Source: Lentzea aerocolonigenes (lineage in GTDB: Bacteria; Actinomycetota; Actinomycetes; Mycobacteriales; Pseudonocardiaceae). Taken from it: DNA of 64,000 nucleotides. The position numbers and the translations under genes were made by a program. Positions 29,627 through 53,644 of this stretch are shown one piece after another (within the stretch, counting starts at the first letter, position 1; each line of letters opens with the position of its first letter). The stretch is from contig NZ_BBOJ01000009.1 of the NCBI RefSeq assembly GCF_000974445.1, positions 186,001-250,000 on the forward strand, given 5' to 3'. Under the pieces are notes generated by a model. It saw only the letters and a list, made by a program, of their open reading frames with translations. It did no database searches and was not told the DNA's origin.

Positions 29627-30280
29627 CAGGGTCCTGGCCGTCACGTCGCCGGACGGCTCGGTGCCGCGCTACATCGGGCAGTTCGTGATCGACCAGCAGA
29701 CCTCCATCGAACCAAACCCGCCCAAGACCAAAGCCCCAGGCGACTGCTACCGCCTGCTGCCCCTCGGCGAGGTCGGCGACGACCCCGCGCTCCACCCGCG
29801 CAGCATCGTCCGCGTGTACGAGCCGCCGACCGACACCCAACCGCCAGCCGGGACCGTCATCACCCAGACGATCTCGAAGGAGAAGATGGAGTGGGCCAAC
29901 CGAACGCACACCCGCCTGCAGAACCAACTGGCGTCCTTCGTCGAAGCACACGGCTTGCGGGCTCTGTCACCGGCACCGACGGCGCCCAGTTCGACGTCGC
30001 GTTCTGGCTGGGCGACACGTTCGTCCTCTGCGAAGTCAAGAGCCTGCCTACTGCAAGTGAAACCGACCAGTTGCGCTACGGCTTGGGCCAGATCATGGAA
30101 TATGCCGCACTCCATGCGCGCCAAGGAGATGAAGTGCAGTCGGTGCTGTACGTCGAACAGCGGCCCTCCGCAGACCAGTGGGAAAGTGCCTGCGCACGCG
30201 GCGGCGTGATCCTGGCCTGGCCAGAGGTCCAGGACCGAGTCCTCGGCGAGCAGCCGATCCGCACTCTCGCGGCCCTGTGA
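29604..30280 (+). pseudogene. Frameshifted PD-(D/E)xK-type nuclease gene
   Basis: Starting at ATG 29604, a frame runs through MDAVFGTHRVLAV, EKMEWANRTHTRLQNQLAS to about 29965. There the coherent sequence jumps to another frame (AQFDVAFWLGDTFVLCEVKS, then QLRYGLGQIMEYAALHARQ) and ends at 30280. The Asp in FDVAFW and the E-x-K in CEVK match the catalytic core of restriction-endonuclease-like nucleases. One base is gained or two lost near 29965; this may be a real inactivating mutation or an assembly error. It precedes the nuclease-NACHT gene by 71 bp. The family is otherwise unknown to me. Confidence 0.65.
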
Positions 30281-30351
30281 CGAAAAGGGGCAGTCGTAGC
30301 CGAGCCGTGGTGTCGCCGAACGATGCCGGTGATGCGCGATACCGTCTCGGG

Positions 30352-33300
30352 ATGCCGAGACCACCCGCAGATTGCAGCAAAACCCAGACGGACGCGGCGA
30401 AACCTGAGGTGGTCCAAGGCCGCTACCTCTACGAGCGGCTGGGCGAGAAACCCTTCCAACAGCTCTGCGGGGCCTTGCTGGCCCGCGAGTTCCCCAACGT
30501 CACCTGCATGCCGATGGGGCAGTCTGACGGCGGCCGCGACATCGTGCGCGACGTGCCCGGCGGCCGAGTCGTGTACCAGGTCAAGTGGTCGGCGAACCCG
30601 GTCCGGCATCCGGTGGCCTGGCTGAAGACCGCACTGGACGGCGAAGCCGCCAACATCCGGCGCCTGGTGCAGGAAGGCGCAACCGAGTACTACCTCATCA
30701 CCTCAGTCGCCGGAACGAGCGTTCCCGGGCGCGGCACGATGGACAAGGTCGATCAACTGCTGTCGCGGTACTCGGCCGAATTTGGCATCCCGATGCGCTG
30801 CTGGTGGCGCGCCGACCTCGATGCCCGCTTGGTCTCCGCTCCGCAGGAGCTGCTGTGGTCGTTCGCGGAGATGCTTGCCGGCTGGGACCTGATCCGCTAC
30901 ATGTCCGACTCCCCTCGGTTGCACGAGCGCGAGGAACTGTTGTGCGACGTGGTGACGAACGTCGTGGCGACCCAGTGGGAGGAGGACTCGAAGGTCAAGT
31001 TCAAGCAGGCGGACATGGACTCGTACGCACTCGATGACCTGTACGTGGACGTCGAGGCGGATCGCGTGGTCCATCCGCAGGGTACGGAGCGCATGGGTTC
31101 GCAACGGCCCGATCTTGAGGGGGTAGGAGGCGCGGCCCAGTACCTGCTCACGACCGACAGGCCGCTGACTCTGGTCCACGGTGCGCCAGGACAGGGGAAG
31201 TCCACTTTCGCCCAGTTCCTGTGCCAGTTGCACCGAACGGCCTTTCGCGCCAAGGCCGTGGCGGAAACCAACGGTGTGGTGGTGGGCGAGTTCGTGGTCG
31301 AGCGACCACGTCTGCCGTTGCGCATCGACCTGCGCGACTACGCCTCCTGGCTACTCGGGCACGATCCGTTCGACTTCGCCGACACCAGCCCGAAGAAACC
31401 CAGGCGAACCGCTCGTTCGCTGGAGTCGTTCCTGGTGCGTCTGCTCCAGGCGAAGGGTGGTGACCTGCCCGTTGGGGTAGCTGAGGTCCACGACCTCATG
31501 GCACGTTTCCCCCTCCTGGTCGTACTGGACGGGCTCGATGAGGTTGCGTCGGCAAAGCTGCGCGAGGACGTCGTGGTCCGCATCGTCGAGTTCACCGCGC
31601 GCCTGGCCGCGAACCGATGGGCTCCGCAGGTCGTCGTGACCACCCGGCCGAACTCGTCGGGACTGGCCGAGCCGGTGGGAAACCAGTTCGAGACGATCAC
31701 CCTGAAACCTCTCGGCCCCGAGCTGCGCCGGTCCTACCTGTCGAAGTGGGCTGACTCGCGCGGACTGCAAACGGGCGACAGGGCGGCTCTCGAGCGCATC
31801 TTCGAGACGCGGTCGGCCGAACCGCACATCGCCCAGCTGGCAGGAAACCCGATGCAGCTGACGATCCTGCTCTACCTCATCCAGAAACGCGGCGACTCGA
31901 TTCCGCACGCCAGGACCGAGCTGTACCGATCCTACATGGAGACGTTCCTCGACCGCGAGGCCGACAAGACCCCGGAAGTCCAGAAGCACCGCAACGACCT
32001 GGAGGAGGTGACGGCCTACCTCGGCTGGTGGTTCCAGTCGCAAGCCGAGTCGACGGGAGCTGGCGGGCAGCTGCCGGTGAGGGAGATCAAGCGAACCATC
32101 CTGAGCTACCTGTACGACGCCGCCAAGGACACCCACCTCGTCGACGAGCTGTTCACGGCCGTCACCGATCGGGTCTGGGCCCTCACAAGCAAGGAACAGG
32201 GGACCTTCCGGTTCGACGTCCAGCCGGTGCAGGAGTATTTCGCCGCCAACTACCTCTACTACGTCGCCGGAGCGGAGCAGCGCCAGTTCGACGCCTCCGA
32301 GGTCTTCCGCGCCTTGGTCCGGCGCCCCTACTGGTTCAACACCTGCCGGTTCTACGCGGGCTTCGCCGCCGTCAACGAACTCGCCGCTCTCGCAGAGGTT
32401 CTGGAGGAGGAGGTCGAAAAGTCCTCGCCTCCCTTCGACACCAAGTCTCTCAAGACACTCATCGCGCACACTCGCGTGGTCATCTGGACCTTGCTCGCCG
32501 ACGGCGTGTTCGCCGCACGACCGAGGACTCAGGAGCGCGTCGTCCGGTTGATCAGCGACGACCTGAGCGTCCGGATGATCGACGACGCGCTGCAGCGGCG
32601 ACAAGATCTGCCGTTCATGGCCGCGGACCGAGGCGGATCTGCTTTCGTTGGTGCGCTGCGGGAGGCCATCGCTGCCGAGCCTCGGCAGCCGATCAACCTC
32701 ATACGTGCCAAGCTCGTTGCCTGCCTGCTGCCGCGGGATGAACCTGCGGCTGCGGAGTTGTGGGACACGTGGTGGCAGTCCCGGCTCAGCGCGGCGGCAG
32801 GAACCAGCGAGGAAATCGTGTGGTTGAAGCTCGGCAGGCCGGCGCGGAGCGCCACCCATCTGCCAGATGCGATCGCATCGAGGTTGACTCTTGATTCGCC
32901 CGGCGCCGTTCAAGCGGCCATGGAAGCAGGATTGTCCGCTCCCAACGACTCCGCGCAGGCAAGCCAACTTCTGCGGGCTGTACTCGATGGGCATTGCAGC
33001 GATGCTTTGCCTGCGGTTTACAGCTGCGAGGCGGCCAATGTGGTGTGGCTGTGGGCTCCACACCACTTCTACCGAAAAGCTGCGGACGAACTGTCAGTCG
33101 TGACCCTCGCTACCGATCATCCAGCATTCATCCCGATCGCGGGTCATCAACGGCACGCCGTCAAGCGCTTGGTTGCCTGGGATCCCCGGTACGAGCGTGT
33201 GCACGAGGCGATGAAGACTCGGCACGGAAAGCGGACGACTACGTCCTCATGGAGCAACACAGCTCGCGAGCTGGCGGCGATCCATGGTCCGTCGCTGCTC

Positions 33301-34068
33301 GGCGCCGAGATCGCGATCATCGGAGCCGCGCTCCCGCCAGATCGCCTGAAGGCCGCCGATGACCTCACAGAGGGCTCGCATCCTTTTGGTGAAAGAACCG
33401 ACTACGGCCTGCTTCTTCGGGAGGTCCGGCTGCAGCGGCTCGATCCCGCGTGGTGGACCTGCGCGTTCGAGAGTTATCCCGACCACCTGTCGCGCGCGAC
33501 ATGGTTGCTGAGCCTGCTCGCCGTCGCAGACACCACCGTGGTGGTCGAATGCTTGGAGCACGTCGACGAGGTAGTCAGCACGCTGCCTGCCTCTGGCCTG
33601 CGCGCGGTTCGGCTCGCCTCAAGCCGGATGGGCGCGTCCGGGCTCGGACGGCGCCTGCACACCAGCGTCCTGAGCCAGCTCGACGGATACTCAGCCGACA
33701 CCGCTTTGCTGGTACTGCACCACACCGTTTTACCGGGGAGTCCCGATCCGCTGGATGAACTTTCCGACGATCTGCTCAGCGCCATGATCAACCTTGAGGC
33801 ATGTTCGTGGCCGGCTGTGCGAGCCGCGCACATGCGCATGACCTTGTCTCCGTCTCTCGCTGTCGGTGACTTACTTCGCTTAGGAGGCCCTAATAGGTAC
33901 CCTGACGCCGTCTCAAGCGGACTGCCCAACGATGTCATGCACGACCTGCTTACGAGACCTGCGGACGTCCCCGTGGAATGGTTGATGGGAGCCGAAGCGC
34001 AGCACTCGGCGACGGTCGCTCAACCTGACTTGGCAGACTTCGCGGTCGCTGAGGGCTGGTTCGACTGA
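30352..34068 (+). CDS. Nuclease-NACHT NTPase (bacterial NLR-like defence protein)
   Basis: 1238 residues counted from ATG 30352; the ribosome site is weak and a GTG at 30310 is possible. The N-terminus is an Mrr-like restriction endonuclease domain: SDGGRD with D63, then YQVKW with Q76 and K78. A NACHT-type STAND ATPase follows, with Walker A HGAPGQGKST (K283) and Walker B LLVVLDGLDE (residues 388-397), typical NACHT spacing. The remaining 700 residues are helical and likely form the sensor. In known bacterial NACHT proteins the C-terminus senses phage and the N-terminal effector kills or degrades DNA. That this gene acts so is an inference from the architecture and its island setting. Confidence 0.88.
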   Translation: MPRPPADCSKTQTDAAKPEVVQGRYLYERLGEKPFQQLCGALLAREFPNVTCMPMGQSDGGRDIVRDVPGGRVVYQVKWSANPVRHPVAWLKTALDGEAANIRRLVQEGATEYYLITSVAGTSVPGRGTMDKVDQLLSRYSAEFGIPMRCWWRADLDARLVSAPQELLWSFAEMLAGWDLIRYMSDSPRLHEREELLCDVVTNVVATQWEEDSKVKFKQADMDSYALDDLYVDVEADRVVHPQGTERMGSQRPDLEGVGGAAQYLLTTDRPLTLVHGAPGQGKSTFAQFLCQLHRTAFRAKAVAETNGVVVGEFVVERPRLPLRIDLRDYASWLLGHDPFDFADTSPKKPRRTARSLESFLVRLLQAKGGDLPVGVAEVHDLMARFPLLVVLDGLDEVASAKLREDVVVRIVEFTARLAANRWAPQVVVTTRPNSSGLAEPVGNQFETITLKPLGPELRRSYLSKWADSRGLQTGDRAALERIFETRSAEPHIAQLAGNPMQLTILLYLIQKRGDSIPHARTELYRSYMETFLDREADKTPEVQKHRNDLEEVTAYLGWWFQSQAESTGAGGQLPVREIKRTILSYLYDAAKDTHLVDELFTAVTDRVWALTSKEQGTFRFDVQPVQEYFAANYLYYVAGAEQRQFDASEVFRALVRRPYWFNTCRFYAGFAAVNELAALAEVLEEEVEKSSPPFDTKSLKTLIAHTRVVIWTLLADGVFAARPRTQERVVRLISDDLSVRMIDDALQRRQDLPFMAADRGGSAFVGALREAIAAEPRQPINLIRAKLVACLLPRDEPAAAELWDTWWQSRLSAAAGTSEEIVWLKLGRPARSATHLPDAIASRLTLDSPGAVQAAMEAGLSAPNDSAQASQLLRAVLDGHCSDALPAVYSCEAANVVWLWAPHHFYRKAADELSVVTLATDHPAFIPIAGHQRHAVKRLVAWDPRYERVHEAMKTRHGKRTTTSSWSNTARELAAIHGPSLLGAEIAIIGAALPPDRLKAADDLTEGSHPFGERTDYGLLLREVRLQRLDPAWWTCAFESYPDHLSRATWLLSLLAVADTTVVVECLEHVDEVVSTLPASGLRAVRLASSRMGASGLGRRLHTSVLSQLDGYSADTALLVLHHTVLPGSPDPLDELSDDLLSAMINLEACSWPAVRAAHMRMTLSPSLAVGDLLRLGGPNRYPDAVSSGLPNDVMHDLLTRPADVPVEWLMGAEAQHSATVAQPDLADFAVAEGWFD

Positions 34069-35631: not shown

Positions 35632-38600
35632 GTGCGGCGCGATGTACAACTACTGACCGTGACAGCCGCCGTCGATATGTTCAACGACTTCCGCAGGTGG
35701 CTCAGGGCGCTCGACGACGCGGATCTCGGTGTGGTCCTGATGCTGAGCGGTCCGCTGCGTGCCGCCGCTAAGCTCCCCCGCGGCGCCGCGGGACTGCGGG
35801 CGCCCGTGCGGCGCGAGCTGATGGCGGTGCGTGCACGACTGGCGAAAGCGAAGGTGCATCAGCTCGTCCGGGTCGCGGAGGAAGTGCTGTCGCCGGCCGC
35901 CGACCTCCTCGTGCACCAACTGTCGTTCAACGAGGCCCTGGTCGCCGACCCGTCGAAAGAACAGCTCGCCGAGATGCTCGTCGCTCTCGGGCGTCCTGTC
36001 GGGACGGTGGTGCTGTACGGCCTCCTGCTGGGCGACGCGAACGCCACGCCGACCGCCACGCGGTATCGCACCGAACTCGAGGACGCCCTCCGTAGTGCGC
36101 CCAGGAAATCCTTGTCAGACCTCGTTCAGAGTGGAGATCGTGACGTGACCGACCGCGTAGAGCCCAGTGACGGGCTCGTCGAGCTCGATCTGCGGTTCAC
36201 CGAGTTCCGGGCCTTCGCTGCGGAGATGTCGGCGTCCCTGCGCAGGCTGGCCGACGACGTCGAACGTGGCGGCGTGGCCGTGCTGACCGCACTCGTGGAC
36301 GAGTACGGCACGCGGCGCGATCAACTCGTGCGTGACCTGGAACTGCCGGAACATGCGGTGTTCGCCGACGCCGAGTCGCGGTTGAAGGAGTTGCGGGAGA
36401 AGGAGGCCGAACGGCAGCGCGAGGAAGAATCGGTTGCCGCCCGCGCCGACGAGATCACCGACCAGATCCGCGGACTGGAGACCATTCTCGGCACGCTTCG
36501 CGGAGAGGCCAAGAGCGGGGTGATGGACAGCGTGGCGGCGCTGCGGAAGGAGTACGCGGAGCTCACGTCCTCGGGCGACCTCGACATCGAGATAGACCTC
36601 GAACCAGCGTCTCAGCCCGGGGTGGAAGCGGAGCTGGGGCTACAGCCCGAGGCCTCCGTCGAGCTCCCCGCCGAGCCGGAGCTCCAGCCCGAGCGAGAGC
36701 TGGCTCCACAGCCCGAGTTGCGGGAACCGTTGCAGGACAAGGAGATCTCGGAGCCCTTTCCGTCTGCGGACGTGACCCTCGGGAGCCGTCCGAGCCTGCT
36801 CGAGCACTTGGGGGTCCCGTCACAGGACGAGTTCCTGCACGGCTGGGACGAGGGCGACCCGCCGCTCGCGGTCGACCTGACGCGTGCGGGCAGGCTTGGC
36901 GAGGCCTACTGGGTGACGGCGATGTCGGGAGAGTTCGACCGCCGGGTCGCCGCGTTGCGCTTCGCTGCGGCCGCCTACGCGGTCACGAGCAACGCCGAGG
37001 CCACCGCCGTGCTCGCCGCGCTGGACCTGGACGCCCAGGAGCTGAGCGCCGACACGGAGGCCGCGGTCGTGGTGACCACCGCCGTGCTCAGAGCAGGGTT
37101 GGTCGCGGGGTGGGGTCACCCGCTGCTCGCCCAGCTCGGTCCGGAGCTGACGTTGCCGGCGCCCTGGCAGACGTTGGTGGACGCGTGCATTGCGGCGGTG
37201 CGGCGCGAGTTCCGCGTCGACTTCGAGGTCGGGCTCGTTCCACCGGAGGAGGACGTGCACGAGGCGCGTGCCGAGCTCGGCAGGCAGGCCGCGGTGCTCC
37301 TCGAGGAACTGCCTCGGCGCAAGAACAACTACCAACGCGCCACCCGGGTGCTGCAGCGGCTCATGGTGAAGGGCCAGCCGTTGTCGAACGCGCTCGAGGC
37401 GGTTCGGGCGTGGTCGGACAACGCCTCGAACGGCCAGGCGCTGTCCGAGGTGGCCGCCGAGTTCGCGGCACCGGGAGCTATCGACGGAATGATCAAGGCC
37501 GCCGACGCGGCGATGAGAACGCCCAAGCAGTCACGGGTGCCCATCGTGGCGACGGCGTTGCGCACTTTGCGCCGCTCCGTCGAGGAGGTCGGGGCGATCG
37601 TGCAGGAGGCGGACGCGGTGCACCGCAGGTTGACCGCCGCCGAGTCCGACGACGCCGCGCTCGGTCAGAAGCTGCGCCGCGCGGCCGACGAGGCGGGCTC
37701 CGCCGAGGTTCCTCCCGGGATGGTCGGCGCCGCGGTCTCATTGCTGCACAGGTGGCTGGAGACGACAACCAGTCCTGTGTGGACCGGTTTCGGCCCAGGG
37801 GACTCACCGTTGTCCAGCGAGGCGCCCGGTATCGCCGAGCCGAGCGTCGACGTGCTGCTGCCGCTGCCGGACCTGCCTCGTGACGCACAGGGCCGGCCGG
37901 ACCAGGATGATCTGCGCACGTCGGCGGTGCTCGCGCGGTTGAGCGAGCCGCTGGACCTGGACGCGGCGCTGCGCTCCTACTGTGAGATCGGGAATCTCCG
38001 CAGCGCGCTGAAGATGATCGAGCTGGCCGACACGGGCTTCTGGGCGGAAACCCAGCTGGCCGCGTCGGCCGCGGAGAAGGTCGCCTCAGCACGGGAGGTG
38101 CTCGTCCGGAAGCACCGCGCGAACCTGATGAAGGCGCGTGAGCTGTTCGCCCGAGTGCGCACGCAGAACCTCCTGGACCAGATCGAGGAGTCGACGGTCA
38201 GCGGCCGTCTGATGACGCTCGACAAGGTGCCAGACGGACGGTTCGACGAGGCCGCACGCCACGTGAGCGCTCTCGTCAGCGGCCTCGAAGCCAAGCAGCG
38301 TTCCTGGGGCGAGGAGCTCCGCGCGGAACTCGCCGCGTTGACGCTCACGGACCAGGATCGTCGGCGAGTCGCCGGCCTGTTGGAGGACGACGACACCGTG
38401 ACCGCGGCGGAGTTCCTGGCGTTCGTCCGGGAGGGCAAACCGCTGCCTGAGTACGCCGAGCTGACCGGCCAGGACCTCAAGGCGTTCATCGGCGTGCTGG
38501 CCGACGGTGTCGCTCGCAACCTGATGGCTCCGCAGACCGGCGCCACCCATTGGGCCAAGCTGATCGTGAAGGATGGTGAGCTGGCAGAGCTCGGCGCCGT

Positions 38601-41133
38601 GGGAGTGAAGGCGTGGGACTCGCTCACCGACAACCGCCAGCACGGCGGTGACCAGCTGCCGGTGGTGGTGAAGGACATCCTGCGCGCGCTGGGCCTGAAC
38701 TCTTCGACTCGGCCGCGGGAGTACAACCAGCGGCAACGCCTCGGCTTCCGCAAGTTCCGCGTGCAGGCGGTGCCGAGCGACGGTTCGTACGTGTCGGTGC
38801 TCGGGTCCGCCGCTTCCGAGTACAACGTGATCGTGGTGACGGACGAACGCCGGGGACGGACCGTGCTCGACGTCCTCGGTCCGGAAGAGTCCGGTCGGGC
38901 CAACGTCGTCCTGTACCTGCACCCGATGGACCTGGGCGCGCGCCGCCAGCTCGCGGCACACGCCGTCGGTACCTCTGCACAGGCGCTGGTGGTCGATCCC
39001 GCGGTGTTCAGCTGGGTCGCCGCGAAGGCACCGGGCTCGTGGCGGGCCACCCAGCGCGTCACGTTGCCCTGGACGGCGCTCAACCCGTACACCCCGTTCG
39101 TCGCGGGTCTCGTTCCTCCTGAGGTGTTCGTGGGACGTGCCAAGGAGATGGCACAGGTGATCGACCCGCACGGCGGGTTGTTCATCTACGGCGGACGACA
39201 GCTTGGCAAGTCGGCGTTGCTGCGCAGGGTGGAGGCCACGTTCAACTCGGCCGACGACCAGCACGCCGTCTACCTGGACCTCAAGGGACGCGGAATCGGC
39301 GAGGCCGAACCCGCCAGCCGCATCTGGCGCGAGCTCGTCGTCGAGCTCAAGGAACGCGGAGTGCTGCAGTCCAAGGTGGCCGCCGACGTCTCGGCCGACG
39401 ACGTGGTCACGCAGATCCGCACCTGGCTCAACAACAAGCCCGGCAAGCGCTTGCTCCTGCTGGCGGACGAAGCCGACGCGTTCCTCACCGCCGACTCACG
39501 TGGCGTGCCGACGGCGGGTGGCGTCTCGACGTTCCCGAACGTGTTGCGGCTCAAGGAGCTCATGGAGTCCACCGAGCGGCGGTTCAAGGTCGTGTTCGCC
39601 GGCCTGCACCAGGTGCAGCGGTTCGGTCACCTGTCGAACGTGCCGCTCGCCCACGGTGGTCCCGACATCCTCGTCGGACCACTGGACGCGGCCGACGCAC
39701 GCAAGCTCGTCGCCGAGCCGCTGGCGGCACTCGGTTACACGTTCGAACAGCCCGAGCTGGTCTGGCGACTGCTCGCGGCGACGAACTACCAGGCAAGCCT
39801 GATCCAGATCTTCTGCGAGGAACTAGTGCGCACCCTGCACAACCGGGTCTCGCAGATCCAGGACCTACCGATGCGGATCCGGGAGAGCGACGTCGAGGCG
39901 GTCGCGGCGAGCGACCGGGTACGGGCCCGCATCGCCGAGCGGCTGCGCATCACGATCAACCTCGAGGACCGCTACAGGGTCCTGATGCTGATCATCGCTC
40001 TGGACAGTCTCGAGGACTCCTTCGGCGCCGACTACAGCGCCGGCGAACTCCTGGAGAAGGCCCAGGTCTACTGGCCCGAGGGCTTCGACGACATGACGGT
40101 CACCCAGACCAGGATCCACCTCACCGAGATGGTGGGGCTTGGGTTGCTCATCCGGCTGTCGGGGCAGGACAGGTTCGCGGTGCGCAGCCCGAACGTGGTC
40201 AACATGCTCGGTACGAAGTCGGACCTGGAACGCGAGCTTGGGGAGACCGACTTCGACCTGCCCTACGAGTACAACCCACGCGACGCTCGCCGCCTGCTCC
40301 AGATCGACGGCAACGACGTGGACCGCAGGAGCCCGCTCACCGACGGGCAGCTGTCCGCCCTGACCGGTTCGACCGCGGGGTTGTCCCTCGTCGTCGGATC
40401 TGTGGCTCTCGGCATCGACCGAGTCGCCCAGGCTGTCAGCGACTACGCCAAGGTGCGCAGTCTGAACGTGGACATCTGCAAGATGGGCACCGACGTCACC
40501 AGGGCTCTGCAGGCTGCTTCGCGCCGCAAGCGGCCGACGGTCGTCGTCGCGGACCTGCGCGGCAAGTCACCCACGGAGATTCGTCGCGCGGAGCAGCTGC
40601 TGACCGAGTCGTCCGTAGCCGCAGTGCTGGTGCTGGAGCGCGACGAGGCGGAGAAGCTCGGCGCCGAACCCGTCCGGCTGGCCCGGTGGACGGTCGGCAG
40701 TCTGCGCAGCTGGCCGGAGTGCCCGTTCGATGTGGTCGAAGCACGCACCAGGTTGATCGAGGCCACCGGCGGCTGGCCGGAGCTCGTGGAGGACCTGATC
40801 AGCACCGTGGTCCGGCGCGGACGGACCCAGGCACAGGCGCTCGACATCGCGAGGCGCGGCACAGGCGATCGCGAGTGGGCCGCGAAGTTCCTCGACCAGG
40901 CGGACGTCAGCGCGGGTCTGCGAGACCGGATCGGCGTCTGGGTCGACTACTTCGACCCCGGCGACCTAGCCTCGCCGGCGGACGTCGCGGAAGCGTTGGA
41001 GATCGATCTCGCCCACGCGACAGCGCTGCTGGAAGAGCTGGCGGAACTGGGAGTGCTCGACGAGGGCGCCAACGGCGTCTCCCTCGACCGAGTGGTCCAC
41101 CGCTGCCTGACGACGCTGCGCGGCACGCCGTGA
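35632..41133 (+). CDS. Giant STAND-type ATPase, first gene of putative defence operon
   Basis: 1833 residues from GTG 35632 (AGGTTGA just upstream; a GTG at 35659 is possible). In order: a helical N-terminal region; a charged coiled coil at about 244-310; a Glu/Pro-rich spacer at about 318-370; a long helical array to about residue 1000; and an ATPase core with Walker A GGRQLGKS at 1187-1194 (K1193) and Walker B LLLLADEADAF (D1279, E1280). The ATPase is introduced by FVGRAKEM, a common lead-in for STAND/AAA_16 modules. A winged-helix segment and another alpha/beta domain follow, ending with a second helical/winged-helix part. No nuclease motif is seen in it. It overlaps the next gene by 4 bp. 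I do not know a named family; it probably works as the sensor/switch for the two downstream effectors. Confidence 0.85.
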   Translation: MRRDVQLLTVTAAVDMFNDFRRWLRALDDADLGVVLMLSGPLRAAAKLPRGAAGLRAPVRRELMAVRARLAKAKVHQLVRVAEEVLSPAADLLVHQLSFNEALVADPSKEQLAEMLVALGRPVGTVVLYGLLLGDANATPTATRYRTELEDALRSAPRKSLSDLVQSGDRDVTDRVEPSDGLVELDLRFTEFRAFAAEMSASLRRLADDVERGGVAVLTALVDEYGTRRDQLVRDLELPEHAVFADAESRLKELREKEAERQREEESVAARADEITDQIRGLETILGTLRGEAKSGVMDSVAALRKEYAELTSSGDLDIEIDLEPASQPGVEAELGLQPEASVELPAEPELQPERELAPQPELREPLQDKEISEPFPSADVTLGSRPSLLEHLGVPSQDEFLHGWDEGDPPLAVDLTRAGRLGEAYWVTAMSGEFDRRVAALRFAAAAYAVTSNAEATAVLAALDLDAQELSADTEAAVVVTTAVLRAGLVAGWGHPLLAQLGPELTLPAPWQTLVDACIAAVRREFRVDFEVGLVPPEEDVHEARAELGRQAAVLLEELPRRKNNYQRATRVLQRLMVKGQPLSNALEAVRAWSDNASNGQALSEVAAEFAAPGAIDGMIKAADAAMRTPKQSRVPIVATALRTLRRSVEEVGAIVQEADAVHRRLTAAESDDAALGQKLRRAADEAGSAEVPPGMVGAAVSLLHRWLETTTSPVWTGFGPGDSPLSSEAPGIAEPSVDVLLPLPDLPRDAQGRPDQDDLRTSAVLARLSEPLDLDAALRSYCEIGNLRSALKMIELADTGFWAETQLAASAAEKVASAREVLVRKHRANLMKARELFARVRTQNLLDQIEESTVSGRLMTLDKVPDGRFDEAARHVSALVSGLEAKQRSWGEELRAELAALTLTDQDRRRVAGLLEDDDTVTAAEFLAFVREGKPLPEYAELTGQDLKAFIGVLADGVARNLMAPQTGATHWAKLIVKDGELAELGAVGVKAWDSLTDNRQHGGDQLPVVVKDILRALGLNSSTRPREYNQRQRLGFRKFRVQAVPSDGSYVSVLGSAASEYNVIVVTDERRGRTVLDVLGPEESGRANVVLYLHPMDLGARRQLAAHAVGTSAQALVVDPAVFSWVAAKAPGSWRATQRVTLPWTALNPYTPFVAGLVPPEVFVGRAKEMAQVIDPHGGLFIYGGRQLGKSALLRRVEATFNSADDQHAVYLDLKGRGIGEAEPASRIWRELVVELKERGVLQSKVAADVSADDVVTQIRTWLNNKPGKRLLLLADEADAFLTADSRGVPTAGGVSTFPNVLRLKELMESTERRFKVVFAGLHQVQRFGHLSNVPLAHGGPDILVGPLDAADARKLVAEPLAALGYTFEQPELVWRLLAATNYQASLIQIFCEELVRTLHNRVSQIQDLPMRIRESDVEAVAASDRVRARIAERLRITINLEDRYRVLMLIIALDSLEDSFGADYSAGELLEKAQVYWPEGFDDMTVTQTRIHLTEMVGLGLLIRLSGQDRFAVRSPNVVNMLGTKSDLERELGETDFDLPYEYNPRDARRLLQIDGNDVDRRSPLTDGQLSALTGSTAGLSLVVGSVALGIDRVAQAVSDYAKVRSLNVDICKMGTDVTRALQAASRRKRPTVVVADLRGKSPTEIRRAEQLLTESSVAAVLVLERDEAEKLGAEPVRLARWTVGSLRSWPECPFDVVEARTRLIEATGGWPELVEDLISTVVRRGRTQAQALDIARRGTGDREWAAKFLDQADVSAGLRDRIGVWVDYFDPGDLASPADVAEALEIDLAHATALLEELAELGVLDEGANGVSLDRVVHRCLTTLRGTP

Positions 41134-42503
41134 GCAGGCAGTTGTGGGAACTGCCTTCGCTGCCTGGTCCGCGCGGCCATCTCGACGTCCTGTCGCGTGA
41201 CCTGGATGACGGGTTCAGTTGCGTGTGGGTGCTTCCGGATGAACTGGTCGAGCGGGGAACGGCCGACGATCTCGTCGACATCGCCGGTGCGCGGCCCGAC
41301 AGCGTCCGGGTCGAGGCGCCGCAACGGAGCCGGATGGTGGTGCCCGCGGCGCACCGGTGGCAGGCCCCTGCGGCCGTGACGATGCCGGCATGGGTCCGGA
41401 ACACTTTGGGAATCCTGGATTTCGACGAGCCCCAAGATCCTGCGCCGATCGTGGCGGACCGTCCAGAAGAGACGGTCGTGGACAAGTTGGGCGCGTTGTT
41501 CGATATCCCGCTGACCGGCGACCCGCTGGCGTGCCTCGCCCTGGACGAGCAGCTGTCCGGCAAGGTCGTCGTGCTGTGCGGGTGGGATGGCTGGGACACC
41601 GCGGATCTCGGCGCGTGCGTCAGCCGGTTCACCGCTCTGCTCAAGGAACACGGGCTCGCCCCCACCTCCAGGCCGCGTCTGCTGGTCGCGGTCAGGGAGG
41701 GCGACCTGCCGGCGTCCGTGCTGGAGCGATCCGACCCGGTGACCACGAAGGTGCACTGGTGGTGGGACGTGTACGGCCGCCTGGACACCGCCACCGTCGC
41801 CGCGGCCGTACGTCGGCAATCCCCGTGGAAGACGACGAAAGGCAAGACAGCCATCCTCCGACAGCTGGTCGCGACCGAGGTGCTGATCGAGGTCGCCGGG
41901 CCTGACCTGCTGCTCGCCGAACACCTCGCCGGATCCTGGAACGGCCAGGCATCCACGCTCGCCGAGCAGATCGAAGCGCTGCCGTACGACGCCGTCGACG
42001 ACGTCGTCCCTGCCGAGATCGATGGCCGGGCAGGGGGCGCACGTCCCCCGCAAGCGCTGCGAAGTGCTTGGCGCAAAGGAGTTGTGGACCGGTGGGACAG
42101 GCGCATCCGGATCAGTCCCGCGGCCAAGTTATCGTCCGCTGAGCACGGCAACCTCGACTCGTTGATCTGGCGCGGGCAGAGTCGTGCGCTCACACCTCTG
42201 GTGGACGGATGCCGTGCGCGTCTGGAAAAGGTGTTGCGGGACAACGCGTCGGCGTCAGTCATCGAACTGCTGGAGCGGGGGCAGGACACTCACGACTGGC
42301 GGCGGACTCGTTCCAGGCAGGGGACGCTGGAGCTGGGCGCGATGGCCTGGGCGGTCAGCAGCAGGCGGGTTCAGTTGTCCCGCCCGGATGCCGACCTCTT
42401 GTTCTGCGCGCGGGACGTCCGCAACTCTTTGGCGCACCTGAGTCCGTTGACCGATGAGGAACTCGACCGGCTGGCCGCGGTGATGCCGGAAACCCTGTGG
42501 TGA
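41130..42503 (+). CDS. Unknown protein with C-terminal HEPN-type R-x4-H motif
   Basis: 457 residues starting at GTG 41130, inside the end of the ATPase gene (GTGA overlap), so coupled to it. The N-terminal 340 residues are soluble, rich in Asp and Trp (KVVVLCGWDGWDTADLG, VHWWWDVYGRLDT), and unlike any family I recognise. The last 100 residues are helical and end in ARDVRNSLAHLSPLTDEEL, where R431-x4-H436 fits the active site of HEPN ribonucleases of the Swt1/RNase LS-like kind. If correct, it is an RNA-cleaving effector or an RNA-binding HEPN protein. The motif is short, so structure prediction is needed to confirm it. Confidence 0.75.
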   Translation: MSRQLWELPSLPGPRGHLDVLSRDLDDGFSCVWVLPDELVERGTADDLVDIAGARPDSVRVEAPQRSRMVVPAAHRWQAPAAVTMPAWVRNTLGILDFDEPQDPAPIVADRPEETVVDKLGALFDIPLTGDPLACLALDEQLSGKVVVLCGWDGWDTADLGACVSRFTALLKEHGLAPTSRPRLLVAVREGDLPASVLERSDPVTTKVHWWWDVYGRLDTATVAAAVRRQSPWKTTKGKTAILRQLVATEVLIEVAGPDLLLAEHLAGSWNGQASTLAEQIEALPYDAVDDVVPAEIDGRAGGARPPQALRSAWRKGVVDRWDRRIRISPAAKLSSAEHGNLDSLIWRGQSRALTPLVDGCRARLEKVLRDNASASVIELLERGQDTHDWRRTRSRQGTLELGAMAWAVSSRRVQLSRPDADLLFCARDVRNSLAHLSPLTDEELDRLAAVMPETLW

Positions 42504-42512
42504 GGTGAGAGC

Positions 42513-44048
42513 ATGTCCTTCGCGCGAAGTGCTGATCCGTTCTTCAGCGACTCGGACACCTACACCTTGATCGAGCACATCGCGAACCAGCGATCGCTCG
42601 TGATCTACGCCGGTGCCGGCGTCACGATTGACCGGACCGGGCAGTCGTGGCCGGCTCTCGTTGAGAAGCTGCTCAGAAAGCACAAGGACAGCGACGAGGT
42701 CTGCCGGGCGATCATGGCGACGAATACCCCGCTGCAGGCCGGCTCGATCGTGAGCCAGCTGTACCTCAACAGGTCGGACGGGTGGCGGACCGAGCTCGGC
42801 AACGACATCCGTGGCTGCCTCTACGAAGGCCGCGCCTGGCGGCAGGGCTCACTCGCGACGGCCGCGGTGAGGCTCGCGGCGGCGTTGGCTGACCACGGGC
42901 GGGAGTACTGCGTCGTCACCACCAACTACGACGACTTCATCGAGCAGGAAGTGCGCGTCCTCGCCGAGGACCGTGCGCGACGCGGCCTGCCTCCGATCGA
43001 GCTGCGGACCTCGGTGGTCGAACCTCAGGATGCACATCCGGACTTCGAGATCGTGGACCACGTCGAGCCCGGCCAGATCCTGCATCTACACGGCTACGTG
43101 CCCAACAGGACCGGGGAAGCCACCGACGTGGTCCTGAGCGAGAAGGACTACATGGCATCGCAAGCGCGCACGAGCGCGGTGCTGGAGTACCTCTTCCGCC
43201 GGCACTCGGTGATCATCGTCGGGTCGAGCCTGACCGACGCACCGCTGCTGAGCGCGCTCGCCAAGACCGTTCCCGGCGATAACGAGCAGCGGCTGCGAGT
43301 GGCGGTGACACCGTTGCAGAGCCTGCAGTTCCCGCCGGACTCGGACGCGTTCATCGGTGACGTCAAGGAAAGCGTCACTGACCGGATGGCTTCTTTCGGC
43401 GTGCGTGCGGTTTTCCCGGACTTCTTCTACCAGACCGCCCAGTTCCTGGCCGAGGCGAGGATCAGCCTGGACCGTCGGGACCCCGACGCCGTGGGACTGC
43501 CCGCGTCCGCGGTCGCGAGGTACCGCACCCGGCTGCACTCGTGGTGGAAAGCGTGGAGCGAGGAGCGCGGCGGCACCGAGCTCGAACGGCAGTTGACAGA
43601 CCACCAGAAGCTGTGCGAGGCCATGGCACGCATCCGCCAGATGCTCAGCATCCCCCAGGCGGAAACGGTGAAGCTGGAGATCTGGGTGAGGTGGGACCCC
43701 AGGAAGCCTTCGGGTCTGCGGCTCTGGGCGTCCACCACGAACCTGTGGCAGCACACCGAGGTGATGAGATGCGCCGACATCGTCGCGAACTCGGCGTACA
43801 CGTCGGTCCAGGCGTTCTGCTCGGGCCAGCCGGGCATTTACCCGTCTGACAGCGACAGGTGGAAGACCTACCTCTGCGTGCCGACGAGGGTCGACTCGGT
43901 CGACGGCGACCTGCCGATCGCCGTGATCTCCCTGGCGTCGATGCGAGACGGGAAAACGTCGCGGATCAGCGAGAAGAACGGCGCGCTGCTGCGCCGGGTC
44001 ATCGTCGAGGTGATGAAGCCGGTCGCGGAGGCGATCACCGGGGGATGA
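42513..44048 (+). CDS. SIR2-like NADase effector with C-terminal GAF-like domain
   Basis: 511 residues; ATG 42513 comes 9 bp after the previous stop, with GAGGTGAG in front. The N-terminal 300 residues carry SIR2 motifs: YAGAGVT (G34-A35-G36), VTTNYDDF (N138), LHLHGYV (H193) and IIVGSSLTDAPLL. In defence SIR2 proteins (ThsA, Dsr-type, SIR2-STAND) the matching Asn and His hydrolyse NAD+ to stop phage growth. From about 370 on, a separate domain (VKLEIWVRWDPRKPSG, then IAVISLASMRDGK) resembles a GAF-like sensor. It closes the three-gene operon; its last 14 bases overlap a convergent small gene. Confidence 0.85.
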   Translation: MSFARSADPFFSDSDTYTLIEHIANQRSLVIYAGAGVTIDRTGQSWPALVEKLLRKHKDSDEVCRAIMATNTPLQAGSIVSQLYLNRSDGWRTELGNDIRGCLYEGRAWRQGSLATAAVRLAAALADHGREYCVVTTNYDDFIEQEVRVLAEDRARRGLPPIELRTSVVEPQDAHPDFEIVDHVEPGQILHLHGYVPNRTGEATDVVLSEKDYMASQARTSAVLEYLFRRHSVIIVGSSLTDAPLLSALAKTVPGDNEQRLRVAVTPLQSLQFPPDSDAFIGDVKESVTDRMASFGVRAVFPDFFYQTAQFLAEARISLDRRDPDAVGLPASAVARYRTRLHSWWKAWSEERGGTELERQLTDHQKLCEAMARIRQMLSIPQAETVKLEIWVRWDPRKPSGLRLWASTTNLWQHTEVMRCADIVANSAYTSVQAFCSGQPGIYPSDSDRWKTYLCVPTRVDSVDGDLPIAVISLASMRDGKTSRISEKNGALLRRVIVEVMKPVAEAITGG

Positions 44049-44286
44049 GCGTGGCCTGCTTCCCGTACTCGCTGACTCGCAGCTCCAGCTCCGCGCGGAG
44101 GTGCGTGTCGAGATCGGCGAGCGTGCGTTCGTCGCCCAGCTCCAGACAGGCGTGGACGTTCTGTTCGACCAGCTCGTCGAACGGCAGCGGTGTGATGGGT
44201 TTCGTGCGCATCAGAACCGTGCCGACCCGCTCGTACACCCAGCCTGATGGCAGCGACTGCGATCCGTGCTCGACTGGTGACGCCAT
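44035..44286 (-). CDS. Small acidic protein, unknown function
   Basis: 83 residues from ATG 44286, with GGGAGG 8 nt upstream. The sequence is soluble and helical (PFDELVEQNVHACLELGDER, then LDTHLRAELELRV). It is convergent with the SIR2 gene and overlaps its 3' end by 14 bp. No family recognised. It may belong with the 44365 gene, whose start lies 78 bp away on the other strand. Confidence 0.6.
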   Translation of the reverse strand: MASPVEHGSQSLPSGWVYERVGTVLMRTKPITPLPFDELVEQNVHACLELGDERTLADLDTHLRAELELRVSEYGKQATLIPR

Positions 44287-44364
44287 CGCCACGACCTCCC
44301 GTCGACCGTTGTGCTACTTCATCGTCCTCGGCCCACCCCATATAACACCGGAACAGTGATCGAC

Positions 44365-44676: not shown

Positions 44677-45020
44677 CAGCTACTAGATGACCTGAGTGCC
44701 GACCTGCTGCTGTGTCCTCCTCTGGCCAGCGCTGGTTGGTTCAGCGGCTGTCGCGTTCCTCCCCGCCTGCGCTTCAGGCGACCTGGCTGGTCGGGTAGCG
44801 GTCTTTGACGTGGGCGTGGAAGTACTTGCCGTGGCTTGGCGCCGCCATGAACTTGTCGTGCACCTCTGCCGGGACACCGGTGTACTGGTAGGTGTGGCCG
44901 CTCTTGAACACCACCTCCAGAGTGGCTGAAGCGCTGTCGTATCCGATGGACCGGGTCTGCTGCACGGATTGGTGACATCTGAGTTGGCTTGCCGTGATGG
45001 TGAGCTGGGAGGATGTCGCT

Positions 45021-45329
45021 GTGCCCAAGCCCTACCCCCAGGAGTTCCGCGACGATGTCGTGCGGGTCGCTCGTGACCGCGAGCCCGGCGTGACGGTCGA
45101 GCAGATCGCCAAGGACTTCGGGGTGCACCCGATGACGTTGTTCAAGTGGCTGCGCCAGGCCGAGATCGAGGACGGCGCCAAGCCCGGTACGAGCCGGGCC
45201 GAGTCGGCGGAGCTGCGTGAGGCGCGTAAGCGGATCAAGTTGCTGGAGCAGGAGAACGAGGTCCTGCGCCGGGCGACCGCGTACTTGTCGCAGGCGAACC
45301 TGCCGGGAAAAGGCTCTACCCGCTCGTGA
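45021..45329 (+). CDS. IS3-family transposase OrfA
   Basis: 102 residues from GTG 45021 with GGGAGG 8 nt upstream. The N-terminal helix-turn-helix (YPQEFRDDVVRVARD, IAKDFGVHPMTLFKWL) binds the IS ends. The C-terminal leucine-zipper region (RIKLLEQENEVLRRATAYL) mediates oligomerisation. Its stop overlaps the OrfB start in the -1 frame, the usual place for OrfAB control. Confidence 0.92.
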   Translation: MPKPYPQEFRDDVVRVARDREPGVTVEQIAKDFGVHPMTLFKWLRQAEIEDGAKPGTSRAESAELREARKRIKLLEQENEVLRRATAYLSQANLPGKGSTRS

Positions 45330-46186
45330 ACGAGCTGGCCGCGGACGGGATTCCCGTCGCGGTGACGTGCCGGGTCTTGAACATCGCTCGACAGCCGTAC
45401 TACCGGTGGCGTGCCCGCCCGGGCACCGCTACTGAGTTCGAGCGGGCTCAGCGGGCGAACGCGTTGTTCGACGCGCACCGCGACGATCCGGAGTTCGGCT
45501 ACCGGTTCCTGGCCGACGAAGCCCGCGACGCCGGCGTGTCGATGGCGGATCGGACCGCGTGGCGGATCTGCTCGTCCATGGGCTGGTGGAGCGCGTTCGG
45601 CAAGAAACGCGGCCGCAACGGCAAGAAGACCGGCCCGCCGGTGCACGACGACCTGGTCCGCCGCGACTTCACCGCCACAGCGCCGAATCTGTTGTGGCTG
45701 GCCGACATCACCGAACACCGCACCACAGAAGGAAAGCTGTATCTGTGCGCGGTCAAGGACGTCTCCTCCAACCGGATCGTGGGCTACTCCATCGACTCCC
45801 GGATGAAGTCCCGTCTCGCCGTCACCGCGCTCACCAACGCCCTCGCCCGCCGCGGTGACGTCGCCGGCTGCGTGGTGCACACCGACCGCGGCTCGCAATT
45901 TCGATCCAGGAAATTCGTCCGTGCACTCGCTCGTCATGGCCTGACCGGGTCGATGGGCCGGGTCGGCGCTGCGGGCGACAACGCCGCCATGGAGAGCTTC
46001 TTCGCGTTGCTGCAGAACAATGTTCTCGACCGGCGTACCTGGAACACTCGCGAGGAACTGCGGATCGCGATCGTCACCTGGATCGAACGCACCTACCACC
46101 GCCGCAGACGCCAAGCTGCCCTCGGCAGGTTGACCCCCATCGAATACGAAGCAATCATGACCACGCCAGCCAGTCAGGCTGCGTGA
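45326..46186 (+). CDS. IS3-family transposase OrfB (DDE integrase core)
   Basis: 286 residues starting at GTG 45326. The catalytic triad is complete: D in LLWLADITEHRT, D in VVHTDRGSQF, and E in NAAMESFFALLQNN, in the spacing of the IS3 rve domain. The HTH_21-like N-terminal part precedes it. The coding frame is in -1 relation to OrfA, so it can be made either from its own GTG or as an OrfAB fusion. Confidence 0.93.
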   Translation: MNELAADGIPVAVTCRVLNIARQPYYRWRARPGTATEFERAQRANALFDAHRDDPEFGYRFLADEARDAGVSMADRTAWRICSSMGWWSAFGKKRGRNGKKTGPPVHDDLVRRDFTATAPNLLWLADITEHRTTEGKLYLCAVKDVSSNRIVGYSIDSRMKSRLAVTALTNALARRGDVAGCVVHTDRGSQFRSRKFVRALARHGLTGSMGRVGAAGDNAAMESFFALLQNNVLDRRTWNTREELRIAIVTWIERTYHRRRRQAALGRLTPIEYEAIMTTPASQAA

Positions 46187-46351: not shown

Positions 46352-46567
46352 ATGACAGATCAGAGACCTGACGGGCGACTGCCGAACCCCAACGGCTGCC
46401 GGTGGTGCGGGGCGGACAGGCACGGTCACGACCAGCGGTGGGTCCCAGGAGTGAAGTGGCACGGCTGGGAACCGCCGACGAGCGAGCAGCGCAAACACCG
46501 CATGCTCGCCCGCCGCGCCAGGCGTCCGGACTGCGGCCGCGGAGCTACTGACTTGCTAGCTTCCTGA
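46352..46567 (+). CDS. Small probable zinc-binding protein
   Basis: 71 residues; ATG 46352 with GGAGGGG about 7 nt upstream. CRWCGADRHGHDQRW has two Cys and two His close together, then a KWHGWEPPTSEQRKHRML tail. Short proteins of this type recur in actinomycetes and their mobile elements; function unknown. Its last 23 bases overlap the 3' end of the convergent OLD-family gene. Confidence 0.6.
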   Translation: MTDQRPDGRLPNPNGCRWCGADRHGHDQRWVPGVKWHGWEPPTSEQRKHRMLARRARRPDCGRGATDLLAS

Positions 46568-48365
46568 GCCTGGCGAAGGTGTCACGAAGCTCGCGGGGAA
46601 CCTGGTCAGGCTCTTCGAGCCGCATCGTGACTTCCAGGACCATCGCCGGCTTGCCACGAGGGAAGTTCTCGGACTGCTCGCGCAACATGCGAGCGACCTT
46701 GTCGCTGAACTTGCCCTCACCGCGCTGAGCGGTGAAGTCGGCTGCGGTCCAGTCGCCTCCCGGCCGCGGCCAGGCCACGTTGGCCGTGCGTGCCCAGATG
46801 TCGTCGTCGAAGAGCTCCTCCAGCTCCTTCTTGTTCGTGGACTTGCCCAACCAGGAAACGACTTCTTCCTGGCGGGTTCCGAACTTTGTGGAGAGGTTGG
46901 CGGGACTGAAGATCCTGCTCTGGGTCTCGCTGTCGGCGTCGATCATCAGGACCACCGTGCGGTCGTGCTTGACCAGGTAGCTCGCCAGGTGCAGAGCGCC
47001 GTCGTTGCCGCCACATGCCCACAGCGCTATCCCAGCGGCCTGCAGCGACAGCCCTTCGGAGAGCGCGAACAGCACCGGGATCGCCTGCTGCTCGGTCTCG
47101 CCCTCGACGGCGAGGAAGCAGCGTTCGTGCAGCAGCACGGAGTTGCGCAGGCCGACCGCCGCAGCCACGGCGCCGAGGTGCCGGTCGAAGTCGGCGTGTG
47201 CCGCGGTGCCGAGACGTTCGACCAAGGTCCGTCGATGCTCGTCGAGGCGCAGAAGCACGACGTCCCGGATGTCGACGCCGTCGATCAGGTTCATCGAGTG
47301 GGTCGCCACGACGACACTAACGTGCGGCAGGTTCGCCTGCTCGCGGATCAGCCTCATGACCTCGCGCTGGAAGTGGTAGTCGAGGTGAGTGTCGGGCTCG
47401 TCGTAGACCACAATCGACTGGACGGGCGGCATGACGGCCTCTGCGCAATCGGCTGCCGGGCTGTCGAGAAGCTCACTGGTGGCTTCCCACACGGCCATGG
47501 AGATGCGGCGCGCGCTGCCCTGACCAGACCGGTCGAGCCGGACCGCCTCACCGCTCGCCCGCTCCAGCCGCAACGATGTCGGTCCCAGCACCGGGGCCAC
47601 GGTCACGGTCGGCTCGACGGTGACCGTCGCGATGTCCGGGCACCGCTCGGCGATGTGGTCGGCCAGCGGCTTCGCCTCGATCGCCAGCCAGTTCGTGGCG
47701 TCGGTCGCGAGCTCCTCGATCTGACCGCGAACGGCGGATTCGTCCAGATAGGACTTGAACCGTACGCTGAGCACGGACCGGATCGCCGCTTCAGGCTGTA
47801 GTGCGGTGCCGTCGAACGCGGCCAGTCGCGGCATCCGGTCGAGCAGCCCTCGTGGGACCTCGGTCCAGCCTTGACTGCTCGAGTGCTTGGCGGCGTGCTC
47901 GCGCAACGCGGTGAGCAGCTCGGGCTTGTTCGCCTTCGCCAGGCCCATGCCGTACGACACGGCGAGCGTCCGCAGTTCGGGCACGCGCTTGCTGTCGAGA
48001 TCGCGCAGGTCCTCGTCGTCGGGCATCGCCGCCCAGATCTGGTAGCGCGGATCAGCCCCGGCCTCGGCGATCCGGCGAACGCGGACCGAGGCCGGCAGCG
48101 CGAAGGCCTCCTGCTCCAGCACGTCGAGCGAGAACGTGCCGGTGACCTCCACGTGTGACTGTCTTTCGCCCGCCTGACCCGCGAGGTACGTCCTGTCGTC
48201 GTCGGTCAGCTTGTGCGTGCCGAGCAGGAACCCCAGCGCGCCGAGGGCGGCGGACTTACCGCCGTCGTTCGGTCCGGCCAGGATCGTGGGCTTGCTGATG
48301 GGGATCTCCGCGACGTCGGCGAGCGAGCGGAATCCTCGTACGGAATAGCTTTGAAGATGCGCCAA
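46545..48365 (-). CDS. OLD-family ATP-dependent nuclease (AAA ATPase + TOPRIM)
   Basis: 606 residues. The ABC-type ATPase has Walker A LAGPNDGGKSAAL, a signature-like RSGQGSARR, Walker B IVVYDEPDTHLD and the H-loop VVVATHS. The C-terminal TOPRIM domain follows: FLAVEGETEQQAIPVLF (first Glu) and VLMIDADSE (DxD). This is the arrangement of OLD and GajA nucleases. GajA pairs with the helicase GajB, but no helicase gene is next to it, so it looks like a single-gene (class 1-like) OLD system. The only reasonable start is TTG 48365, with a weak ribosome site. Defence role inferred from family and island context. Confidence 0.88.
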   Translation of the reverse strand: MAHLQSYSVRGFRSLADVAEIPISKPTILAGPNDGGKSAALGALGFLLGTHKLTDDDRTYLAGQAGERQSHVEVTGTFSLDVLEQEAFALPASVRVRRIAEAGADPRYQIWAAMPDDEDLRDLDSKRVPELRTLAVSYGMGLAKANKPELLTALREHAAKHSSSQGWTEVPRGLLDRMPRLAAFDGTALQPEAAIRSVLSVRFKSYLDESAVRGQIEELATDATNWLAIEAKPLADHIAERCPDIATVTVEPTVTVAPVLGPTSLRLERASGEAVRLDRSGQGSARRISMAVWEATSELLDSPAADCAEAVMPPVQSIVVYDEPDTHLDYHFQREVMRLIREQANLPHVSVVVATHSMNLIDGVDIRDVVLLRLDEHRRTLVERLGTAAHADFDRHLGAVAAAVGLRNSVLLHERCFLAVEGETEQQAIPVLFALSEGLSLQAAGIALWACGGNDGALHLASYLVKHDRTVVLMIDADSETQSRIFSPANLSTKFGTRQEEVVSWLGKSTNKKELEELFDDDIWARTANVAWPRPGGDWTAADFTAQRGEGKFSDKVARMLREQSENFPRGKPAMVLEVTMRLEEPDQVPRELRDTFARLRKLASQ

Positions 48366-53149: not shown

Positions 53150-53644
53150 CTAGTCAATTAGTCGTTGATGCACCCATTGATGGATATTGTCGATCAGTTC
53201 TTTATAGGACTTGATGTTCGCTAGACCTCCACCGTAGCTTTTTCCATGCGCCGTGTCGTTACGTATCTTCAGCAGTGTTCCAAGGAGATCGCGATTGGCA
53301 TCCTTGTCCAGAAACTCCTTTAGTTCTTCAGTCCACGCATCGCTCAGTCGACCAATTAGTTTCTCGAACGCACCTGGATTCAGGTTTGGCGCGTTCTTGA
53401 ACCACGATAGAGCGAATGTCTTGGCGACAGGCCCGGATGTGTCTGACACGTAGGCACATATTGCCATATGTAGGAGCTGCTCAAGATACCCGGAAAAGCG
53501 AACGCATAGGTACAGGTGCAAGTCCTGTTGCACGTTAATCGGTACGGTGGTGTACGAATCTCTGTATCGTTGGTAGGTTGAGTCTACCGCCGATTTCATG
53601 CGGTGTATCTCACGCCGCGCCTGTTCTCGGCTGCTCGTCGTCAT
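53150..53644 (-). CDS. HEPN-domain protein, partner of DUF262
   Basis: 164 residues. Helical throughout, ending with LLKIRNDTAHGKSYG, where R128-x4-H133 is the HEPN RNase motif. It resembles the MAE_28990/RiboL-PSP-type HEPN proteins that are found next to DUF262 genes. The ATG overlaps the DUF262 stop (ATGA), so the two proteins are made together. Likely the toxic RNA-cleaving half of a two-gene defence pair; this role is inferred from the motif and neighbour. AT-rich compared with the rest of the window. Confidence 0.8.
   Translation of the reverse strand: MTTSSREQARREIHRMKSAVDSTYQRYRDSYTTVPINVQQDLHLYLCVRFSGYLEQLLHMAICAYVSDTSGPVAKTFALSWFKNAPNLNPGAFEKLIGRLSDAWTEELKEFLDKDANRDLLGTLLKIRNDTAHGKSYGGGLANIKSYKELIDNIHQWVHQRLID

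Follow-up and report, generated by a model that had tools for sequence, protein, structure and literature searches.

The DNA analyzed here is a stretch of 64,000 nucleotides (nt) from Lentzea aerocolonigenes, an actinomycete with a genome of 10.69 Mb, and is referred to as the window. It contains three adjacent genes on the forward strand, the first two of which form a conserved pair. Gene 1 (35632..41133, +) encodes a giant STAND/ORC-type ATPase of 1833 amino acids, and gene 2 (41130..42503, +) a protein of 457 amino acids with an N-terminal alpha/beta part and a C-terminal HEPN domain. Gene 3 (42513..44048, +), coding for a SIR2_2 protein of 511 amino acids, adjoins the pair and is no part of it. 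A small convergent gene (44035..44292, −) encoding 85 amino acids shares 14 nt with the 3′ end of gene 3.

The three same-strand open reading frames (ORFs) had been proposed in a sequence-only reading of this DNA and were found again at the coordinates given above. Gene 1 and gene 2 overlap by 4 nt (GTGA), so that gene 2 starts with the GTG at 41130, and 9 nt lie between the end of gene 2 and the ATG of gene 3 at 42513. Gene 1 may alternatively begin with the GTG at 35659, the start of the ORF listed for Lentzea xinjiangensis (L026), which is the closest gene 1 relative among the named-genome matches listed. The third-position GC contents of 0.87, 0.83, and 0.89 for genes 1, 2, and 3 fit coding genes. 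Based on the spacing, the sequence-only reading had assigned all three genes to one unit, which holds for the recurrent pair of genes 1 and 2, but was not borne out for gene 3, whose homologues rarely adjoin the pair. Tight gene spacing in a single genome is not enough to define a system.

The conserved pair of ATPase and HEPN protein

Genes 1 and 2 are a conserved two-gene unit. An alignment of 13 gene 1 proteins was used for a scan of named genomes, the best 80 matches of which gave 79 loci. In 59 of these, a gene 2 homologue was found behind gene 1 on the same strand by a profile search, in which the profile was built from 9 proteins first and then rebuilt from its own matches. A BLAST search with gene 2 of the window alone found a relative in 57 of the 79 loci. 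The gene 2 homologue lies at most 60 nt from gene 1 in 57 of the 59 loci, most of which show the 4-nt overlap, and in two loci (L064 and L077) the gene 1 ORF is interrupted before the gene 2 homologue. The gene 2 profile was also positive in 8 of 15 further loci, taken from plasmids and additional genomes, three of which repeat loci among the 79. In a sample of 249 genomes of the host family, gene 2 was found in 10 genomes, including that of the window, and is directly preceded by gene 1 in all of them. Within the genus of the window, one other genome carries the pair (G402), which is possibly of the same species as L026. In total, it was found in Actinomycetota, Myxococcota, Acidobacteriota, Verrucomicrobiota, Pseudomonadota, and Rhodothermota, several of these being metagenome-assembled.

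The STAND/AAA core, which had been recognized in gene 1 from its sequence, was confirmed. AAA_22 matches residues 1181–1329 (E 6.7e-6) with 26.9 bits against a cut-off of 27, and ATPase_2 matches weakly (E 6.3e-4). A structure model covering the C-terminal half (residues 890–1833) has a mean predicted local distance difference test score (pLDDT) of 86. In a fold search against the PDB it matched an NLR resistosome (E 4.4e-7), SSO1545 (E 2.9e-6, TM-score 0.57 over the target), and Orc/Cdc6 structures; other AAA+ families (ClpC, Cdc48, RuvB) are likewise among the matches. According to this model, the predicted fold of the C-terminal half is that of a STAND/ORC-type ATPase. The Walker A motif GGRQLGKS is located at residues 1187–1194 (39190..39213, +), and its G and K positions are invariant in alignments A1 and A5. 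K1193 of this motif as well as D1279 and E1280 are invariant in 13 of 13 aligned proteins. Of 94 gene 1 loci, 93 have a Walker A pattern and 83 a strict Walker B pattern.

The two Lentzea loci, L026 and the window, are 88% identical in gene 1 and 91% in gene 2. The ratio of nonsynonymous to synonymous substitution rates (dN/dS), obtained by Nei-Gojobori count, is about 0.13 for gene 2. As estimated from the same comparison, gene 1 is under purifying selection, with dN/dS values of 0.07–0.37 by region. Residues 1–330 (35632..36621, +) show a value of 0.37 and residues 1131–1560 a value of 0.07; across five further relatives these regions are 30–40% and 71–80% identical, respectively. The fast-evolving N-terminal region is a candidate sensor, and its fast change is compatible with a sensor and with relaxed constraint alike.

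The HEPN domain of gene 2 comprises residues 352–452 (42183..42485, +), which match HEPN_Swt1 (PF18731) below its cut-off, with E 0.0016 and 19.2 bits, and includes E401, R431, N432, and H436. The R-x4-H motif previously noted at the C-terminus is intact. All 47 aligned rows agree in R431, N432, and H436, and 45 of them in E401. Besides the window, the alignment includes 46 of the 58 complete homologues, after 8 near-copies (78% identity filter) and the four loci L041, L054, L075, and L079 had been removed. R-x4-H was found in 66 of 67 gene 2 proteins, the 67th (L065) being truncated at a contig end. With N432 following R431, the motif satisfies the R-x4-6-H pattern with a polar residue after the arginine, which is given for HEPN domains in the available part of PMC3710099.

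The structure model of gene 2 has a mean pLDDT of 89. Its N-terminal part showed weak matches to AAA+ folds (RFC, MuB, RuvB, ORC, Apaf-1, RPP1) with low TM-scores, and a Walker A pattern occurs there in 1 of 47 rows. Tentatively, this part is AAA+/STAND-like, but it lacks a Walker A motif. A shared origin of parts of gene 2 and gene 1 was not supported by profile comparison.

NCBIfam models gave nothing significant for genes 1, 2, or 3, and sequence searches of the PDB gave no credible match for any of them. In a 2023 copy of PADLOC no model matches gene 1 or gene 2 up to E 1. Likewise, an earlier description of the pair was not found in the literature searched, which included few subscription papers and no bioRxiv. 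The pair looks like an undescribed defence system.

The SIR2 gene and its convergent neighbour

Gene 3 matches SIR2_2 with E 1.5e-13, which is above the cut-off, and the catalytic residues N138 and H193 are identical in 3 of 3 proteins, so that the catalytic Asn and His named in the sequence-only reading stand. As a SIR2 protein, its product may consume NAD. The GAF-like tail assigned to it could not be substantiated, since no Pfam model matches up to E 10 and P was 0.12 when the tail was compared with 12 GAF_2 domains encoded in the window's own genome (control of GAF against GAF: E 6.6e-7). The short stretch of the tail that aligned to GAF_2 is the one that looks like GAF. Comparison with the ThsA profiles of Thoeris was not significant (E 0.039 and 0.056), and the gene 3 profile found the SIR2 chains of KomC alone in the PDB, weakly (best E 0.032).

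Homologues of gene 3 are rare. They were found in 3 of the 249 family genomes, and only that of the window carries the pair as well, while no gene 1 homologue was found in the other two (G505 and G557). In a sample of 394 genomes of the class, the only genome with a homologue is the window's own. A SIR2_2 protein is encoded in 2 of 50 pair-bearing genomes searched (of 59), those of L048 and L059, in both cases on other contigs, as their positions exceed the length of the contig with the pair. No match to the gene 3 protein was found in plasmid records. In viral contigs there were 12 pattern matches, which encode no relative.

The SIR2 protein of G505 is 59% identical to that of gene 3, and its gene is overlapped at the 3′ end by a small convergent gene, the product of which resembles that of the window (43% over 65 amino acids, E 9e-20 in a single comparison). 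The two small genes lie at 44035–44292 (−) in the window and at L108:12473–12721 in G505, and thus in two genera. G557 encodes a SIR2 protein with 37% identity and has a convergent small ORF in the equivalent place, for which no similarity to the small gene of the window was found. Since the small gene is also convergent on the SIR2 gene in G505, the two genes look like a unit apart from the pair, with one genome besides that of the window having the small gene. This gene possibly encodes a regulator or inhibitor of the SIR2 gene.

These data bear on the idea of a true three-gene operon, in which the pair would have been extended in this lineage alone and the giant sensor would switch on two effectors, a HEPN ribonuclease (RNase) and an NADase of the SIR2 type. 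The gap of 9 nt on the same strand and the ribosome-binding-like sequence GAGGTGAG, which precedes gene 3, speak for it, as does a remnant of the SIR2 gene in the equal arrangement at L026. This remnant shows that SIR2 already followed the pair in the ancestor shared by L026 and the window, so that the arrangement is older than their split. However, among the pair loci examined, none besides these two has SIR2 next to the pair. At L026, DNA homology is confined to about the first 120 nt of the SIR2 gene, although both genes of the pair are intact, and in G505 and G557 SIR2 occurs without gene 1, in one of them with the equivalent small convergent gene. The three-gene operon is therefore quite unlikely, whereas a partnership of SIR2 with the pair in the Lentzea lineage alone is possible.

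A three-gene STAND-HEPN-SIR2 system was considered as a candidate and set aside. Genes 1 and 2 are together in 59 of 79 loci, with gene 3 beside them only in the window and as a remnant in L026, and the SIR2_2 search of pair-bearing genomes, the decay in L026, and the independent SIR2 locus of G505 led to the same conclusion. The proposal that one sensor unites RNA cleavage and NAD depletion was not supported, as gene 3 is seldom found with the pair and two of its carriers lack gene 1. Among the loci examined, an intact trio was found in the window only, which comes close to the three genes never occurring together.

Partners of related ATPases and genomic setting

The partner of the ATPase is exchanged among its relatives. 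A quick tree with several long branches was calculated from 98 rows, representing the window and 97 of 101 loci; L019, L020, and L022, which are copies of other loci, and L021, which is no such copy, were left out. The neighbouring gene was labelled as HEPN in 68 rows, as beta-CASP in 9, and as PLD-SNF2 helicase in 3. A further 9 rows have a DinG-type helicase or an uncharacterised protein of about 740 amino acids that co-occurs with the helicase, and in 9 rows the neighbour is another one or none was found. The 9 beta-CASP rows form a single clade (support 99), and the HEPN label requires at least five changes on the tree. In this clade, a beta-CASP/RMMBL metallo-RNase-like protein is encoded behind the ATPase (L083, L086, L088, L090, L091, L095, L097, L098, and L103), identified by Pfam for L088 and by BLAST for the other eight loci.

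Fusions to pPIWI_RE were found as well. A plasmid of Microvirga (L110:1750–11934) encodes a protein of 3394 amino acids with three pPIWI_RE domains and AAA_22 (Pfam), and the gene behind it codes for a HEPN protein that also contains AAA_33, a kinase-like domain. The arrangement on a plasmid of Bradyrhizobium (L111:2032–11334) is alike, with the fusion identified by BLAST and AAA_33 by Pfam. In Azospirillum (L016:2179–11955) the pPIWI_RE-ATPase is distributed over two ORFs, which are split inside the RNaseH domain of pPIWI_RE, the upstream ORF covering profile positions 1–153 and the ATPase ORF positions 229–287.

That the ATPase is repeatedly coupled to RNase-like proteins is the chief reason to regard RNA as the putative target; the helicase partners add nothing to it. 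Those helicases, present beside some relatives, and the structural matches to ORC/Cdc6, RuvB, and clamp-loader folds would fit a different role, in which the HEPN domain of gene 2 binds RNA or DNA without cutting and the pair handles nucleic acid in replication or repair. The strict conservation of the HEPN active-site residues R, N, and H and the beta-CASP RNase-like protein as alternative partner argue against such a role, which is quite unlikely. It is possible, although not quite probable, that a widespread and so far undescribed immune system is built around the ATPase, which would work with one or another RNA-cutting partner (HEPN, HEPN-kinase, or beta-CASP). Where the ATPase is fused to pPIWI_RE, as in some Alphaproteobacteria, the targeting of RNA might be guide-directed.

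Relatives of gene 1 also occur on mobile DNA. They were identified in 27 of 72,556 plasmid records, with a gene 2 homologue in 8 of the 15 that were examined. Phage records contained no gene 1 match. Among viral contigs, four loci with a gene 1 relative were found, one of them with a gene 2 homologue (L119). On this phage-like IMG/VR contig (L119:4809–11341) the ATPase gene is followed by the gene 2 homologue, and tail-like genes, recognized by eye, are adjacent.

Several genes in the window surrounding the locus encode proteins known by their domains. A NACHT protein (E 5.2e-7) is encoded at 30178–34068, the N-terminal part of which appears restriction-endonuclease-like by eye. An OLD/GajA-like protein with matches to AAA_15 and an OLD-like TOPRIM domain is encoded at 46545–48365 (−), and a GmrSD_N protein (E 1.7e-28) at 53641–54813 (−). 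These three were counted in favour of a role in defence. Furthermore, two overlapping ORFs at 44994–46186, between the SIR2 gene and the OLD-like gene, resemble an IS3-type transposase by eye. The gene at 24674–28027 matches the NCBIfam model of an endo-1,6-beta-glucanase below the cut-off and an NADase-type glycan-binding domain above it.

Alternatively, the pair may be a toxin-antitoxin-like or stress-response module, with gene 1 keeping a toxic HEPN RNase in check in response to a signal of the host rather than a phage. HEPN toxins are known from toxin-antitoxin pairs according to the available part of PMC3710099. In 12 of 79 loci, all from Streptomyces, the pair has the same SDR/fabG-like neighbour, as judged by eye, and such a shared site is also compatible with a resident role on the chromosome. 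A partner of 1833 amino acids with a fast-changing N-terminal region is, however, unlike a simple antitoxin. Copies of the pair are located on plasmids and on a phage-like contig, and related ATPases have helicases or pPIWI_RE as partners, which makes such a module unlikely.

Proposed function and comparison with known systems

The locus probably comprises two separate things, namely an ATPase-HEPN pair of sensor and RNase, and an independent SIR2 gene with its own small neighbour. In this pair, the ATPase would hold or assemble the HEPN protein, and the fast-evolving N-terminal region of gene 1 would meet the signal of an invader, either nucleic acid or a phage protein. An ATP-driven rearrangement of gene 1 may then activate the HEPN domain of gene 2, whose cleavage of RNA would stop phage production or growth. 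The SIR2 gene and its convergent neighbour would have arrived behind the pair in the lineage of the window; co-transcription is possible, with the pair acting independently of gene 3.

Several observations weigh against this interpretation. The HEPN_Swt1 match of gene 2 is below the cut-off of 27.5, and of 7 other gene 2 proteins three are matched weakly (E 0.017–0.03) and four are not. The best fold match of gene 2 has E 3.9e-3, so that none of the 50 listed attains E 1e-3, and there is no HEPN structure among these 50. Other clades of the ATPase lack the HEPN partner, and as the 79 loci derive from the best 80 matches, the sample leans to close relatives. The shared site of the 12 Streptomyces loci and the position of SIR2 behind gene 2 before the window and L026 split belong to the same side.

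If the pair is a defence system, it would add a wide class directed at RNA, with a single ATPase acting together with various RNases. The pPIWI_RE proteins, which have been little studied, would also gain a context, as one of them is fused to a related ATPase.

In Avs and SIR2-STAND proteins, a STAND switch drives an effector, SIR2 being among the effectors, and both are part of a single polypeptide. In contrast, ATPase and effector are separate genes in the window, gene 1 shows no match to an effector domain, and SIR2 is not a conserved partner of the pair.

The closest known systems are the DUF499-HEPN systems related to bacteriophage exclusion (BREX) and the BrxC/BrxB proteins of BREX, and gene 1 matched neither of them. 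The former are centred on DUF499, a STAND/ORC-Cdc6 ATPase to which HEPN is often fused, plus a methylase and a helicase, as described in the available parts of PMC12839542 and PMC3710099. They resemble the window in that a STAND/ORC-Cdc6 AAA+ ATPase is tied to a HEPN RNase, which is of the Swt1/Abi2 type there and tentatively so in gene 2, whereas HEPN is a separate gene in the window and DUF499 was not matched by gene 1 up to E 1. In BREX, the large active STAND/ORC ATPase BrxC is accompanied by BrxB, a smaller STAND-like protein without Walker motifs (PMC12839542, available part). The combination of a large ATPase and a smaller partner without Walker motifs is alike, tentatively so for gene 2, but BrxB is presented without HEPN in that part of the paper, and the BrxC models of PADLOC do not match gene 1 up to E 1.

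The pPIWI-RE triad consists of a restriction endonuclease, a DinG helicase, and pPIWI-RE (PMC3702460, available part). Relatives of gene 1 are related to it by the fusion to pPIWI_RE or by their position beside DinG-type helicases, whereas the main text of PMC3702460 contains neither the term HEPN nor the term ATPase. Finally, CoCoNuT systems are based on a McrB GTPase and have HEPN effectors, which are replaced by a Vsr-like nuclease in Type III-B, and are predicted to target RNA (PMC11090510, available part). The pair resembles them in its HEPN effectors, in the replacement of these by another nuclease, and in the predicted targeting of RNA. It differs in that gene 1, in place of a McrB GTPase, has AAA_22/ATPase_2 matches and a predicted STAND/ORC fold.

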